Assembly (NCBI GenBank): GCA_905234985.1
Contig: CAJOJQ010000001.1
Location: 124,001-188,000 of the forward strand
Reading direction: 5' to 3'
Length of the DNA stretch: 64,000 bases
DNA from: an uncultured Christensenellaceae bacterium
Lineage (GTDB): Bacteria > Bacillota > Clostridia > Christensenellales > Aristaeellaceae
The number at the start of each line of letters is the position of its first letter. The stretch's first letter is position 1. A program made the translations under genes and the position numbers. The notes beneath the pieces are model-generated. The model searched no databases and was not told where the DNA came from. It worked only from the letters and a program-made list of their open reading frames with translations. Below, piece by piece: positions 16,766-22,864 of the stretch.

Positions 16766-18118
16766 TCAGTTCCGCAGGCTGTGGAGCGGAGCGGGGATGC
16801 GTCCGCCCCGGGCGATGAAGGCATCGCTGCCGAAAGGATGCACCGGGATCACGGGAGCGCGGCCCAGCAGGCCGCCGAATTCCACGGAATCGCCCACGGT
16901 CTTGCCCGGGGCGGGGATGACGCGCACGGCGGTGGTTTTATTATTGATCATGCCGATGGCCGCCTCGTCGGCAATGATGGCGCTGATGGTGGCGGCGGAG
17001 GTATCGCCGGGCACGGCGATCATATCCAGGCCCACACTGCACACGCAGGTCATGGCTTCCAGTTTGTCCAGGGCCAGCGCGCCGCAGGCGGCGGCTTCGA
17101 TCATGCCGATGTCCTCGCTGACGGGAATGAACGCGCCGCTAAGGCCCCCCACGTGGGAGGAAGCCATGACGCCGCCCTTTTTCACCGCGTCATTGAGCAG
17201 TGCCAACGCCGCCGTGGAGCCGTGGGTGCCGCACTTTTCCAGGCCCATTTCTTCCAGGATGTGCGCCACGCTGTCGCCCACCGCCGGGGTGGGGGCCAGG
17301 GACAAATCCACGATGCCGAAGGGCACGCCCAAGCGCTGGCTGGCCTCCATCGCCACCAGCTGGCCCACGCGGGTGATGCGGAAGGCGGTTTTCTTGATGG
17401 TTTCGGCCACCACGTCAAAGGGTTCTCCCCGCACGTTTTCCAGGGCGCGCTTTACCACGCCGGGGCCGCTGACGCCAACGGAAACGGCGCAGTCGCCCTC
17501 TCCTGGGCCGTGAAACGCGCCCGCCATGAAGGGATTATCCTCCACCGCGTTAGCGAAAATCACCAGCTTGGCGCAGCCTAAACCGTCCTGCGCCTTGGTG
17601 CGCTCCGCCAGGGCTTTGATGGCTTCGCCGCACAGGCGCACGGCGTCCATATCAATGCCCGCCCGGGTAGAAGCCACGTTGATGGAGGAACACATGAGAT
17701 CGGTTTCAGAAAGCGCCTGGGGAATGGACAGGATCAGCCGCCGATCCGCCTCCGTCATGCCCTTCTGCACCAGGGCGGAATAGCCGCCGATGAAATCAAC
17801 GCCCGTTTCCTTGGCGGCCTTGTCCAATGCCAGGGCCACGGGCAGCGGATCGTCCACCGCGCCGGTGATCAGGGAAACAGGGGTGACGGAAATGCGCTTG
17901 TTCACGATGGGCACGCCGAATTCCCGCTCGATTTCCCGGCCCACCTTCACCAAATTTTCCGCCTGGCGGGCGATGCGGCTGTAGACCCGACTGGCTAAGC
18001 GCCGGGTGTCGTCGCACACGCAGTTGAACAGGGAAATGCCCATGGTAATGGTGCGCACGTCGAGCTTTTCCTGGTCGATCATGCGCAGGGTTTCATAAAT
18101 CTGACTGCTCTGGATCAT
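16766..18118 (-). CDS. PFL family protein, UPF0210
   Basis: A 450-residue UPF0210 protein. The N-terminus [23 protein letters not shown] and the [13 protein letters not shown] stretch are hallmarks. I chose the ATG at 18118 because GGGGGAA lies 6 bases before it; an in-frame TTG at 18136 overlaps the stop of the upstream gene and has no ribosome site, and the ATG gives the family's usual length. The family is conserved beside small ACT proteins, as here, but the reaction is not established. Confidence 0.9.
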
Positions 18119-18132
18119 ACGGCTTTCCCCCG

Positions 18133-18414
18133 TCAAATCTGATGCATGGCTTCAAAGATTTCGCTTTTCTGAATGCGGATCTGCAGGCCCAATTTTTGCC
18201 CCAAGGCGTTCAGCTCGCCCTGCAGTTCGTCGAAGGGGCAGGTGGGTTCGGAAATGTCCACCATCATGACCATATTGAAATAACCGTCCAAAATCGTTTG
18301 GGAAATATCCAGGATGTTGATGCCCCGATCAAACAGGATCGCGCTCACCTGGGCGATGATGCCCTTGCGGTCAAAGCCCAGCACCGTCACTACCGCCTTG
18401 GAAACTGCCGCCAT
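18133..18414 (-). CDS. ACT-domain protein, UPF0237
   Basis: A 93-residue stand-alone ACT domain ([33 protein letters not shown]), the fold that binds amino acids and regulates enzymes. It is the usual partner of UPF0210, whose gene starts 14 bases after its stop. It is the first gene of the long minus-strand unit; GGAGG lies 8 bases before the ATG, and a TTGCGG/TATAAT promoter plus a 14-bp palindrome lie in front. Confidence 0.9.
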
Positions 18415-18493: not shown

Positions 18494-18554
18494 GGGCGGC
18501 AAAAACGGCGCGGCGCGAAGGCAAGAGACACGCTTACATTTTTTTTGCATTTAT

Positions 18555-18583
18555 TTGCATTTCGGATGAAAATGGCGTATAAT
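18555..18583 (+). promoter_or_regulatory. Promoter for the SDR-ligase/ACP/AOS operon
   Basis: TTGCAT (18555-18560), 17-base spacer, TATAAT (18578-18583). Predicted start near 18590, which gives a leader of about 88 bases before the chosen GTG at 18678. Confidence 0.78.
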
Positions 18584-18677
18584 GAACAAGATTCTGCCCT
18601 AACGATTGGAAATCGCGGGGCGGAACGATAAAACGGGAGAAACCCTTCCGTTTTACGGGGGAAAGGGGGCGAAAAAA

Positions 18678-19520
18678 GTGACGCGGGTGGTATGGATCAC
18701 CGGGGCTTCCAGCGGTCTGGGCCTGCATACGGCGCAGGCGCTTTCGGAAAACGGATTCACCGTGGTCGCGGGCGCCCGGTCCTTCGGAAAGGGCAAAAGC
18801 GTGCCCGGCTGCACGTGCCTGCCCCTGGACGTGACCGACCAGGACAGCATCGGCGTTTTCGTACGGGAAGCGCAAAAAATCAGCGGCCCGCCGGACGCGC
18901 TGGTGAACTGCGCGGGGATGCTGATTTTAGGCCCCTGCGAAACCTATCCCCTGAACGAATTGCGTCAGGTGATGGAAACCAACTTTTTCGGCCAGGCGGC
19001 CATGATCTCCGCCGTGCTGCCCCTCATGCGGGCGAACGGACACGGGCGCATCGTGAACTTTTCTTCCATCAACGGTTTGCTTGGCATTCCCTTCGAGGGG
19101 GCGTATACCGCCAGCAAGCACGCTGTGGAGGGGTACAGCGAATGTTTGGCCCTGGAGGTCAAGCCCTTCGGCATCGAAGTGATGCTGGTGGAGCCGGGGG
19201 ACCACCGCAGCGGCAGCGCCGCCTACCGGCGCCATTCCGCGGGCATGACGGAGGCGTCCCCCTACAAGGCCGACTTTGACAGCGGCACGGCGGCCATCGC
19301 CCGGGACGAGGCGGGCGGCTCCGACCCGGATATCTTAGGCCGGAAGATCGCAAAAGCGCTGAAAAAGAAGCGCCTGCCCCGCCGCCTGCGGGTGGCGAAG
19401 CCCGACCAGCATTTGGCGGTGATCCTGCACGACGTGCTGCCCGCCCGGATGTTTGACTGGATTTTGCGGGATTATTACTGTAAAACTTCCCAAGAGAAGA
19501 ATCGAGGAAAAGGAACATGA
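18678..19520 (+). CDS. SDR oxidoreductase, 3-ketosphinganine-reductase-like
   Basis: A 280-residue classical short-chain dehydrogenase. TGASSGLG at residues 8-15 binds NAD(P)H, NCAG follows near 79, the catalytic Ser is in FSSINGL, and Tyr143/Lys147 form YTASK. I chose the GTG at 18678 because AAAGGGGGCG lies in front; an upstream in-frame TTG at 18606 has no ribosome site and is only about 16 bases from the predicted transcript start. Its stop overlaps the start of the following fusion gene in ATGA, so the two products should be made together. Given that partner, a likely job is reducing the beta-keto group of an amino ketone, as 3-ketodihydrosphingosine reductase does. That function is inferred; the SDR call is firm. 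Confidence 0.82.
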   Translation: MTRVVWITGASSGLGLHTAQALSENGFTVVAGARSFGKGKSVPGCTCLPLDVTDQDSIGVFVREAQKISGPPDALVNCAGMLILGPCETYPLNELRQVMETNFFGQAAMISAVLPLMRANGHGRIVNFSSINGLLGIPFEGAYTASKHAVEGYSECLALEVKPFGIEVMLVEPGDHRSGSAAYRRHSAGMTEASPYKADFDSGTAAIARDEAGGSDPDILGRKIAKALKKKRLPRRLRVAKPDQHLAVILHDVLPARMFDWILRDYYCKTSQEKNRGKGT

Positions 19521-22500
19521 GCGAGGTACTCGCCCGCAGCAATCAATTGCGGGAGAATATGACCCTTCAAAACCTGTTTGAAATCATCACCGGCGACGAA
19601 GACCGGATCGCGGCCCGCTATTTGGAGGGCGGCGAGGAAAAAACGATTTCCTACCGGGAATACCGCAGCCGCACCTTCGCCTGCGCATTTCTGCTGCAAA
19701 ACGTGCTGGGCGAAAAGAACCGGGGCAAGTTCGTGGGCATCCAGCTGGACACCAGCCCGGAATGGTTTTACCTGTTCTGGGGCGTGATCGCCGCGGGCTA
19801 TAACGCGGTACTCATGGATTTTACCCTGAGCGATGAAATGACCGCCTACATCCTGCGCCAGGCCGGGGCCGTGGCCCTGATCGGCAAAGCCCCCCGGAAC
19901 TTAAGCGGCGGCGTGCGCCAGTTCACCGTGAAGCAAATGGCTATGGCCCAGCCCGTTTCCGCTTTCAAGCCCGATTTCGGCCATATGGTGGCTTTGTGTA
20001 CCTCCGGCACCACCGACACCAGCCGCGTGTTCGTCTACAACGAAACGGCGGTGTGCAGCCAGGTACTCAACGCGGAAATGCTGTACAAGGCCAACAAGCG
20101 CATCATCTGCGACGAACCCCGGCGGCAGCTGGCCTTCCTGCCTTACCACCACATTTTCGGGTTCATGGTGTGCCTGCAGTGGATTCATTTTTTAGGCTAT
20201 GAAACGGTCTATTTGCAGAACCGCAGCCCCCAGTGCATCCAGGAAACGGCCCGGCACTTCAAGATCACCCATCTCATGGCCGTGCCCCTGCTGGCTAATA
20301 ACCTGTGCGTGGCCCTGAACAAGCAGGTGGCAAAGCAGAGCCGCTTAAAGCGGGCGGGCTTCAAGACCCTGCGGGGCCTGTCCCTGGCCCTGCAAAGCGT
20401 GGCCCCCGGCTTCGGGCTGGACTTTGCCCGGAACGTGCTGTTCAAATCCATCACGGAGCAAATGTTAGGCAGCGACGTGCGCTGCATCATTTTGGGCGGC
20501 AGCCATACCCCCAAGGAGCATATGCGCACCCTGTCCGCCTTGGGTTATTTCACCGTGTCCGGCTTTGGCATGACCGAAACGGGCGTCACCTCCGTGGAAA
20601 CCAACATGAACGTGATCACCCGCACCTCCGGCAGCGTGGGGCGGCCTCTTGCCAGCGCCGAATACCGGGTGCAGAGCGACGGGGAAAAGAGCAACCGGGG
20701 CGAAATGTACATCCGGGGCAACACCCTGCATACGGGCCGGCTGGTGGAGGGGAAAATTCTGCCCCCCGCCCTGGACGACGAGGGCTGGTTCCGCACTGGC
20801 GACGTGGTGCGCCTGGAAAAGGGCAGCCGCATGTACGTGGAAGGCCGCGCCAAGGACGTGATCATCAACGAATCCGGCGAAAACGTGTACCCCGACGAGA
20901 TCGAGGACGCTTTCGGCGTGTTGGAGGGCGTGGAGCAGTTCTGCGTATTAGGCGTGAAAGCGCAGAAAAAGAAAGAAAAAGAGGAAAAAGGCTTTCTTTC
21001 CCATATCCCCCTCCCGCATTTGCCCGGAAGGAACAAGGGCGTGGTGGATTACGAGGACATCACCCTGGTCATCAATGTGGGCCAGCATTACCGGGACGAT
21101 GATTATATTTCCGGCCTCATGGGTCAGGTGCGCCGCGTCAACGCGGGCCTGCCCGCCTTAAAGCGGGTGAACCGGGTGCTGGCGACCTCCGAAAAATTCC
21201 AGACGGCGGGCGGCATCAAAGTGAAGCGCCTGGCGCTGAAAAAGCAGATCGAGGAAAAGAAGCTGGCCTACCGGGATATTGATTTCAACCGCCGGGACGA
21301 AGCCTCCATCGAGGAGAGCAAGCCCCTGGTGCAGGAGGAAAACACTCCCTCCGATCTGCAATTGGAGGAAATCAAGCAGAAGGTGCGGCTGGTGTACGCC
21401 GAAACCCTGAACGTGACGCCCGACCAGATCCGGGACGACGCCCACTTTATCGACGAATTAGGCGGCGACAGTTTACAGGTTTTAGGCATGAGCCTGAAAA
21501 TCGAGGAACAGTTCAACGTGCTGATCCCCACCGAGGAATACGGCAAGTGTACCACGGTGAACGACTTAAGCGCCCTTTTGTACGCCAAGGTGCGCGGCGA
21601 CGTGGCCTATGAGAGCGCGGGCGAGGAAAGCGGGGAGCCGGTCACGCCCATCACCCGCTTTGAGGACGCGCCGGAATATTTGGCCTTTGAAAAGCGCTGG
21701 CAGTCCCTCATGGGCGAAGGCCAGGAAAACCCCTATTTCGTGGCCCACGATTCCCCCTTGCTGGATAAGAGTTTCGTGGACGGCCAGTGGATGCTGGATT
21801 TCGGCAGCTACAACTACGTGGGCATGAGCGGTCGGGAGGAAACCAAGGCCGCCGCCAAGGCTGCCATCGACAAGTACGGCACCTCCGCTTCCGGCAGCCG
21901 GTTGCTTGCGGGCGAAAAGACCCTGCACAAAGAGCTGGAAGCCGAAATCGCCAAGTGGAAGCACACGGAAGACGCCCTGGTGCTGGTAGGCGGCCATTCC
22001 ACCAACGTGACCTGCGTGGGCAACTTCTGCGGCAAGGGCGATTTGATCGTTTACGACGCCATCGCCCACAATTCCATCGAGCAGGGCTGCCGCCTTTCCC
22101 AGGCTACGGCCAAGCCCTTCCCTCACAGCGACGTGAAGGCCCTGGAAAGCATCCTGCGCAACCAGCGTCACAAGTTCGGCAAGGTGCTGATCGTCATCGA
22201 GGGCGCCTACTCCATGGACGGCGATATCGCTCCCGTGCCCGAATTCGTGGCCCTGAAAAAGAAGTACGGCTGCTTCCTGATGGTGGACGAGGCTCATTCC
22301 GCCTGCGTCATCGGCAAGACTGGCGGCGGCGTGGACGAATATTTCGGCCTGGCCCCCGACGATATTGATATCAAGTACGGCACCCTGTCCAAGGGCCTTG
22401 GCACCTGCGGCGGCTATCTGGCCGGTAAGCGTTCCCTGATCGAATACCTGCGCTACAACCTGCCCGGCTTCGTGTTCTCCGTGGGCATTTCCCCGCCCCT

Positions 22501-22864
22501 GGCTGCCGCCAGCTTAGAGGCCATCCGCCTGCTGCAAAAGGACCCCTCCATCATGGAGCGCCTGCGCCGCAACATCAAATGCTTCTACGAGGAAGCCCAC
22601 AAGCGCCATATGAACACGTGTTTGGCCGGGGAAACGGCCATCCTGCCCATTCTGGTGGGCCGGGACGAGGACGCCTGGGAGCTAAGCAACCGCCTGCGCA
22701 AAAAGGGCGTGATCGTGCCCCCCGCCGTGTACCCCGCTGTGCCCAAAAACAAAGCCCGCCTGCGCTTCTGCGTGATCTCCGAGCATAACCCGGAGGAAAT
22801 TGTGGAAGCCTTGGACAAGCTGGTGGAATGCGCCAAGGAAGCGGGCATTCAGCTGCCTGAATAA
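19517..22864 (+). CDS. Fusion: acyl-AMP ligase, ACP and alpha-oxoamine synthase
   Basis: The 1115-residue protein has three enzymatic parts. Residues 1 to about 600 are an ANL-superfamily adenylation domain: phosphate loop CTSGTT (161-166), FGMTETG (350-356), GWFRTGD. Residues about 618-690 are an acyl carrier protein with the phosphopantetheine serine Ser652 in ELGGDSLQVLG. Residues about 730-1110 are a PLP-dependent alpha-oxoamine synthase: TSASGSRLLAGE, IEGAYSMDGD, VDEAHS (Asp924, His927) and TLSKGLGTCGGYLAG with the PLP lysine Lys959. This implies a fatty acid is activated, loaded on the ACP, and condensed with an amino acid with loss of CO2 to give a beta-keto amine. If serine is used, the product is 3-ketosphinganine. 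The family also includes KBL, BioF and ALA synthase, so the amino acid is open. Coupled to the SDR gene by ATGA. Confidence 0.9.
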   Translation: MSEVLARSNQLRENMTLQNLFEIITGDEDRIAARYLEGGEEKTISYREYRSRTFACAFLLQNVLGEKNRGKFVGIQLDTSPEWFYLFWGVIAAGYNAVLMDFTLSDEMTAYILRQAGAVALIGKAPRNLSGGVRQFTVKQMAMAQPVSAFKPDFGHMVALCTSGTTDTSRVFVYNETAVCSQVLNAEMLYKANKRIICDEPRRQLAFLPYHHIFGFMVCLQWIHFLGYETVYLQNRSPQCIQETARHFKITHLMAVPLLANNLCVALNKQVAKQSRLKRAGFKTLRGLSLALQSVAPGFGLDFARNVLFKSITEQMLGSDVRCIILGGSHTPKEHMRTLSALGYFTVSGFGMTETGVTSVETNMNVITRTSGSVGRPLASAEYRVQSDGEKSNRGEMYIRGNTLHTGRLVEGKILPPALDDEGWFRTGDVVRLEKGSRMYVEGRAKDVIINESGENVYPDEIEDAFGVLEGVEQFCVLGVKAQKKKEKEEKGFLSHIPLPHLPGRNKGVVDYEDITLVINVGQHYRDDDYISGLMGQVRRVNAGLPALKRVNRVLATSEKFQTAGGIKVKRLALKKQIEEKKLAYRDIDFNRRDEASIEESKPLVQEENTPSDLQLEEIKQKVRLVYAETLNVTPDQIRDDAHFIDELGGDSLQVLGMSLKIEEQFNVLIPTEEYGKCTTVNDLSALLYAKVRGDVAYESAGEESGEPVTPITRFEDAPEYLAFEKRWQSLMGEGQENPYFVAHDSPLLDKSFVDGQWMLDFGSYNYVGMSGREETKAAAKAAIDKYGTSASGSRLLAGEKTLHKELEAEIAKWKHTEDALVLVGGHSTNVTCVGNFCGKGDLIVYDAIAHNSIEQGCRLSQATAKPFPHSDVKALESILRNQRHKFGKVLIVIEGAYSMDGDIAPVPEFVALKKKYGCFLMVDEAHSACVIGKTGGGVDEYFGLAPDDIDIKYGTLSKGLGTCGGYLAGKRSLIEYLRYNLPGFVFSVGISPPLAAASLEAIRLLQKDPSIMERLRRNIKCFYEEAHKRHMNTCLAGETAILPILVGRDEDAWELSNRLRKKGVIVPPAVYPAVPKNKARLRFCVISEHNPEEIVEALDKLVECAKEAGIQLPE

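Follow-up and report, generated by a model that had tools for sequence, protein, structure and literature searches.

A single protein of 1115 residues that joins an acyl-AMP ligase, an acyl carrier protein (ACP) and a PLP-dependent alpha-oxoamine synthase is somewhat likely to carry out the committed step of sphingoid-like base formation in one chain, in the manner of a serine palmitoyltransferase (SPT), with reduction of the ketone by an SDR to follow. The genes of both proteins lie side by side in the window, the 64,000-nucleotide stretch of DNA analysed here, which belongs to a Clostridia genome assembled in 97 contigs totalling 3.57 Mb. The pair is a real and conserved two-gene lipid locus, probably a core one in a Clostridia family. 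Animals and plants begin sphingolipid synthesis by joining an activated fatty acid and serine, and sphingoid-type lipids made by Bacteroides enter host metabolism. The locus is a new arrangement of known chemistry, and its link to eukaryotic SPT is possibly notable.

Organization of the locus and proposed pathway

The first gene encodes a KDSR-like SDR (18678..19520, forward strand), whose product has the Pfam domain adh_short (1e-41) and the classical motifs TGASSGLG, NCAG and YTASK, all kept in its relatives. Its GTG start at 18678 is preceded by the purine-rich GGGGGAAAGGGGG; the frame is also open from an alternative TTG start at 18606. A promoter-like TTTGCA-18-TATAAT found upstream by consensus scan (18554..18583, forward strand; 10/12 positions) is only suggestive, such sites occurring in the region at about the number expected by chance. 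The SDR stop at 19520 and the ATG of the second gene at 19517 share an ATGA overlap (19517..19520, forward strand). Immediately 5′ of the operon lie divergent DUF711 and ACT-domain genes with a 4-base overlap of their own (16766-18414), which as far as seen bear no relation to it.

The second gene (19517..22864, forward strand) encodes the fusion, as delineated by its open reading frame, Pfam and its relatives. The ligase domain spans residues 1-598 (19517..21310), with Pfam AMP-binding at 27-405 (5.5e-40). It is followed by the ACP at residues 622-688 (21380..21580; PP-binding, 1.7e-11), in which the phosphopantetheine serine, Ser652 (21470-21472), sits within GGDSL. The synthase occupies approximately residues 738-1110 (21728..22846), as outlined by Pfam (Aminotran_1_2 at 759-1102, 2.3e-47), NCBIfam, alignment and a structural model; its PLP lysine, Lys959 (22391-22393), lies within GTLSK, and a SYNY motif is found at residues 764-767. 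Alignment places both Ser652 and Lys959 at the expected catalytic positions. The reading frame, the gene overlap, the motifs and these two residues had all been described in an earlier note on this DNA and were reproduced here from the sequence and Pfam.

In the proposed pathway, the ligase would adenylate a free fatty acid with ATP to give an acyl-AMP, and the acyl group would then pass to the Ser652 arm of the carrier protein in cis. The synthase would form a PLP aldimine with an amino acid, most likely L-serine, and condense it with the acyl thioester, releasing CO2 and yielding an amino ketone of the 3-ketosphinganine type. With a long acyl chain, reduction of this ketone by the SDR would produce a sphinganine-type amino alcohol.

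Distribution of the fusion

The fusion is present in 27 of 28 genomes of the same genus, the exception being G003. Close genomes are on record from gut assemblies, among them ones from goat reticulum, the rumen of sheep and buffalo, and cattle duodenum; two genomes of the family are in 2 contigs each and may represent isolates. An even draw of genomes over the order recovered the fusion in numerous genera belonging to the same family, where ACP and synthase are approximately 70% identical, and in two more families of the order (f21 and f31) at 50-60% identity. Outside those families, a class-wide draw yielded no genome with a match covering the ACP. Within the family, conservation is highest in the synthase (~75-78%) and lowest in the ligase (42-57%). 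In many genera the complete architecture is retained at 54-98% identity, which argues that the fusion is not a product of chance. Its relatives all keep the adenylation motifs CTSGTT, MTET, TGD and GRxKD, the lysine of the C-terminal IKVKR, and the ACP serine; motif conservation was scored on correctly extracted rows, after re-extraction of five rows that had been spoiled by long antisense reading frames in GC-rich DNA.

Several variants of the architecture were encountered. Stand-alone synthases of 409-415 residues occur in three family genomes, G114, G342 and G031 (L137 8709-9941, L138 8345-9574 and L146 8865-10112), at 68-71% identity to the fused domain and with no ligase-ACP adjoining. 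It is likely that they arose by fission or loss, since they are nested within the fusion clade in the tree. Divergent fusions in G261 and G198 (L141 7053-10235 and L142 6431-9613) keep the ligase and ACP motifs and have lost both the PLP lysine (SLCGAFG in place of GTLSKG) and the stacking histidine, so that their synthase domain is apparently dead or repurposed. Another genome of the order, G055, encodes two relatives of the ligase in frames of ~670-690 codons that lack a synthase domain (L147 8153-10120 and L148 8463-9881), one of them with a matching ACP.

Pairing with the SDR

At the loci of the genus, the SDR gene lies immediately 5′ of the fusion gene, often with a 4-base overlap, while the other neighbours vary. 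The SDR also adjoins the fusion in several other genera, and further members of the family carry it elsewhere in the genome. Targeted searches of the family genomes found the SDR (47-63% identity or higher) in 14/15 with the synthase and in 1/12 without it (G060), a co-occurrence with a Fisher p of 1e-5 that is optimistic, as the genomes are related and kinship is uncorrected. A close SDR was not found in f21 and f31, where the fusion would need another reductase. Other neighbours were considered as pathway partners and rejected, only the SDR being conserved beyond close relatives, and targeted searches for downstream lipid genes found none that co-occurs cleanly with the fusion.

The earlier note likened the SDR to 3-ketosphinganine reductases. 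Among 207 NCBIfam families its best match is indeed the KdsR model NF049977, but the score of 229.8 bits falls under the cut-off of 400. This top rank says little, because the same model finds nothing above its cut-off in Bacteroidota, whose SDRs score like that of the window. Reduction of a 3-ketosphinganine-type ketone is its putative role.

The later fate of the base may include N-acylation. As the earlier note remarked, no N-acyltransferase lies nearby; a distant 375-residue, full-length homologue (28% identity) of YghO/Aca, the N-acyltransferase of proteobacterial ceramide synthesis, sits on another contig of the same genome (C7, L245 8622-9746). This enzyme type was rejected as a partner: it occurs in G003, which lacks the fusion, and many genomes that do have the fusion are without it.

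Ancestry and active site of the synthase

Two trees, of 82 and then 58 sequences, unite the synthases of the family with that of a Planktothrix polyketide synthase (PKS) and with eukaryotic LCB2 (support 99/93 and 99/90), while KBL, BioF and ALAS fall elsewhere in both. LCB2 is the nearest characterised group. A grouping with KBL/BioF, which the earlier note had named as part of what would refute its reading, thus did not appear. The branches are long and the exact place of the family among SPT-like enzymes is unsure: constraining it to the prokaryotic SPTs costs 17.5 log units with a p-AU of 0.0585, which does not reject that placement.

The active site points in the same direction. Residues with PLP- and serine-binding roles have been described in the SPT of S. 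multivorum (PMC10196870; also PMC9304779), and alignment finds equivalents of His138, Ser81, Ser185, Asp210, His213, Thr241, Ser243, Lys244 and Arg367 in the fused synthase. The position of S. multivorum Asn52 is Tyr in the window synthase, in LCB2 and in Sphingomonas SPT. The surrounding motif is SYNY in the window synthase and LCB2, TYNY in Sphingomonas SPT, and NNY or NDY in KBL, BioF and ALAS, in which, as in most others, the first Tyr position is N. The AlphaFold2 model of the synthase (pLDDT 88) fits the serine-bound S. multivorum SPT best (3a2b; Z 51.4, rmsd 2.0 over 386 residues), and the next enzyme follows at Z 49.6, with a tie margin of 1. Both the phylogeny and the active site bear out kinship with SPT-type enzymes, and the sphingoid-type interpretation put forward in the earlier note is partly supported.

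Against it, both genes stay under every curated SPT and KdsR cut-off. The synthase scores 268 bits on NF047599 (cut-off 500), 289 on NF047600 (640) and 219 on NF047603 (670), and for this reason it is called SPT-like rather than placed in a curated SPT family. Its highest raw NCBIfam score is to bioF (TIGR00858; 338.9 bits, under the cut-off of 426). This score, together with known BioW-BioF fusions (PMC9544090), would suit a biotin enzyme in which a pimeloyl-ACP ligase is joined to BioF. Such a role is disfavoured and scarcely credible: bioB above cut-off was found neither in the source genome nor in 13 relatives tested, the BioF proteins of E. coli and Azospirillum are separate from the synthase in the tree, and the partner gene of the fusion encodes an SDR rather than a biotin enzyme.

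A cysteate-using, capnine-type synthase of sulfonolipids is likewise disfavoured and very improbable. SulA is an acyl-ACP-dependent synthase of the same fold (PMC9304779) that aligns with the model at Z 44.6, but the position of its diagnostic Lys281, matched by alignment through the FAKS of Formosa sequences, is Val989 in the window synthase, and the Formosa sequences with this lysine lie far away in the tree.

The choice of amino acid is a closer matter. Should the same chemistry proceed with glycine or alanine, the products would be 1-amino-2-ketones or the corresponding alcohols, or 1-deoxysphinganine-type lipids. The SPT of S. multivorum accepts alanine and glycine, though only weakly (PMC10196870), and 1-deoxysphingolipids have been reported from anaerobic marine bacteria (PMC11334938). 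At position 79 (counted as in S. multivorum), close to the side chain of the substrate, the S. multivorum enzyme has Ala and the window synthase has Ser, a difference that speaks for this alternative. However, the SYNY Tyr, Ser81, Ser243 and the remainder of the serine-contact set match SPTs, and the tree places the synthase with serine-using LCB2. Use of glycine or alanine is on balance unlikely, and serine is the more probable substrate.

A different kind of synthase was observed in other genomes of the order, mostly ones without the fusion. Here an unfused SPT-like synthase gene overlaps an SDR gene (L201 7183-9152, L202 8358-10299, L203 2910-4851, L204 397-2354, L205 8437-10390, L211 9030-11002 and L212 8228-10238). 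In the tree, synthases of this unfused type form the sister group of S. multivorum SPT; on the model for Bacteroidota SPT, which has a cut-off of 640, they reach 504-569 bits. Judged by sequence, Clostridia thus have another sphingoid-type pair, distinct from that of the window.

The ligase and its acid

The acid taken by the ligase is the weakest link of the proposal, because the domain resembles MenE and CoA-ligase types and its fold search is nearly tied. Its best family models are of the CoA-ligase and menE types. It shares 24% identity over 292 residues with an AasR, a protein that itself scores 802 bits on PRK09192, and is not clearly an AasR of the FAAL type. With an AlphaFold2 model of pLDDT 85, in which an insert at 485-510 is poorly modelled, MenE, FadD13, MatB and aryl ligases came out near-tied, a result that does not fix the substrate. 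The matches listed include no fatty acyl-AMP ligase, which is not evidence of absence.

Among the nearest ligases of solved structure are MenE, the feruloyl- and malonyl-CoA ligases and enzymes that adenylate aryl acids, and the nearest relative of the synthase is the terminal domain of a PKS. Both facts would accord with a specialised-metabolite enzyme that takes a non-fatty acid (aromatic, dicarboxylic or short) and makes a small amino ketone or alcohol. This possibility is rated slightly below use of glycine or alanine, since the fusion is near-universal in the genus and widespread in the family and has no other biosynthetic genes conserved nearby, a pattern to be expected of a core lipid more than of a metabolite cluster with patchy distribution. 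A fatty acid is the substrate assumed in the sphingoid pathway.

Relation to known systems

In Caulobacter and E. coli BL21, the same steps are performed by the separate proteins AasR, AcpR and SPT, and SPTs of this kind prefer acyl-AcpR as their substrate (PMC9386255). The earlier statement that known makers use separate genes holds for E. coli BL21 and Alphaproteobacteria, whose gene order was checked; in BL21, acyl-AMP ligase, epimerase, ACP and SPT are neighbours, arranged in this order. The domain order of the fusion is the ligase-ACP-SPT gene order of these bacteria, and a ligase, a dedicated ACP and an SPT-like synthase stand in line as in Caulobacter CC_1165/1163/1162 and E. coli BL21 ECD_02851/02853/02854. 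The window locus differs from these sets in its single chain, in a ligase that is not clearly FAAL-like, in having an SDR where they have CerR/epimerase, and in a synthase that lies nearer LCB2 than their SPTs do in the tree.

In Pseudomonas fluorescens MYb115, SPT activity is proven for the PKS-fed synthase PfSgaB, and a KDSR homologue is encoded in the same cluster (PMC12134224). PfSgaA/SgaB/SgaC resemble the window locus in that an acyl chain passes to a synthase with SPT activity and that the cluster includes a KDSR-like SDR, whereas there an iterative PKS builds the chain for a separate synthase and here a ligase would activate the acid. Eukaryotic LCB2/SPTLC2 shares SYNY and the catalytic residues with the fused synthase. 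It differs in working as a membrane heterodimer on acyl-CoA, in contrast to fused ACP and ligase domains, and in having GTFTKS for GTLSKG.

The Planktothrix agardhii protein is a 2532-residue type I PKS on plasmid p3 (NZ_LR882937; L155 8584-16182) that ends in an ACP and an SPT-like synthase. The latter is 49% identical over 97% of the window synthase and likewise follows an ACP in the same chain, but its chain also contains a full PKS. Glycosyltransferases and a separate fatty acyl-AMP ligase are encoded nearby, and the locus is a candidate for a cyanobacterial PKS-made sphingoid lipid. An AMP-binding enzyme with an embedded SPT-like domain, B1XHP8 of Synechococcus PCC 7002, was already listed in 2013 (PMC3870968). 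It resembles the fusion, by description only, in combining both functions in one protein, and such fusions are therefore not wholly new as an idea.

Implications

The main text of three papers on bacterial SPT (PMC12134224, PMC11334938 and PMC9386255) makes no mention of Clostridia. The broader proposal, that a single ligase-ACP-SPT chain makes sphingoid bases across a gut Clostridia family and that its synthase has its closest known ancestry with LCB2, is a tentative one that we regard as possible rather than probable. The single chain offers a compact enzyme for testing, and the LCB2 link would ease study of the origin of eukaryotic SPT. If the proposal is true, common rumen Clostridia would be unrecognised makers of sphingoid-type bases, ruminant Clostridia would supply such sphingolipid-type bases, and the synthase would be a bacterial relative of LCB2.
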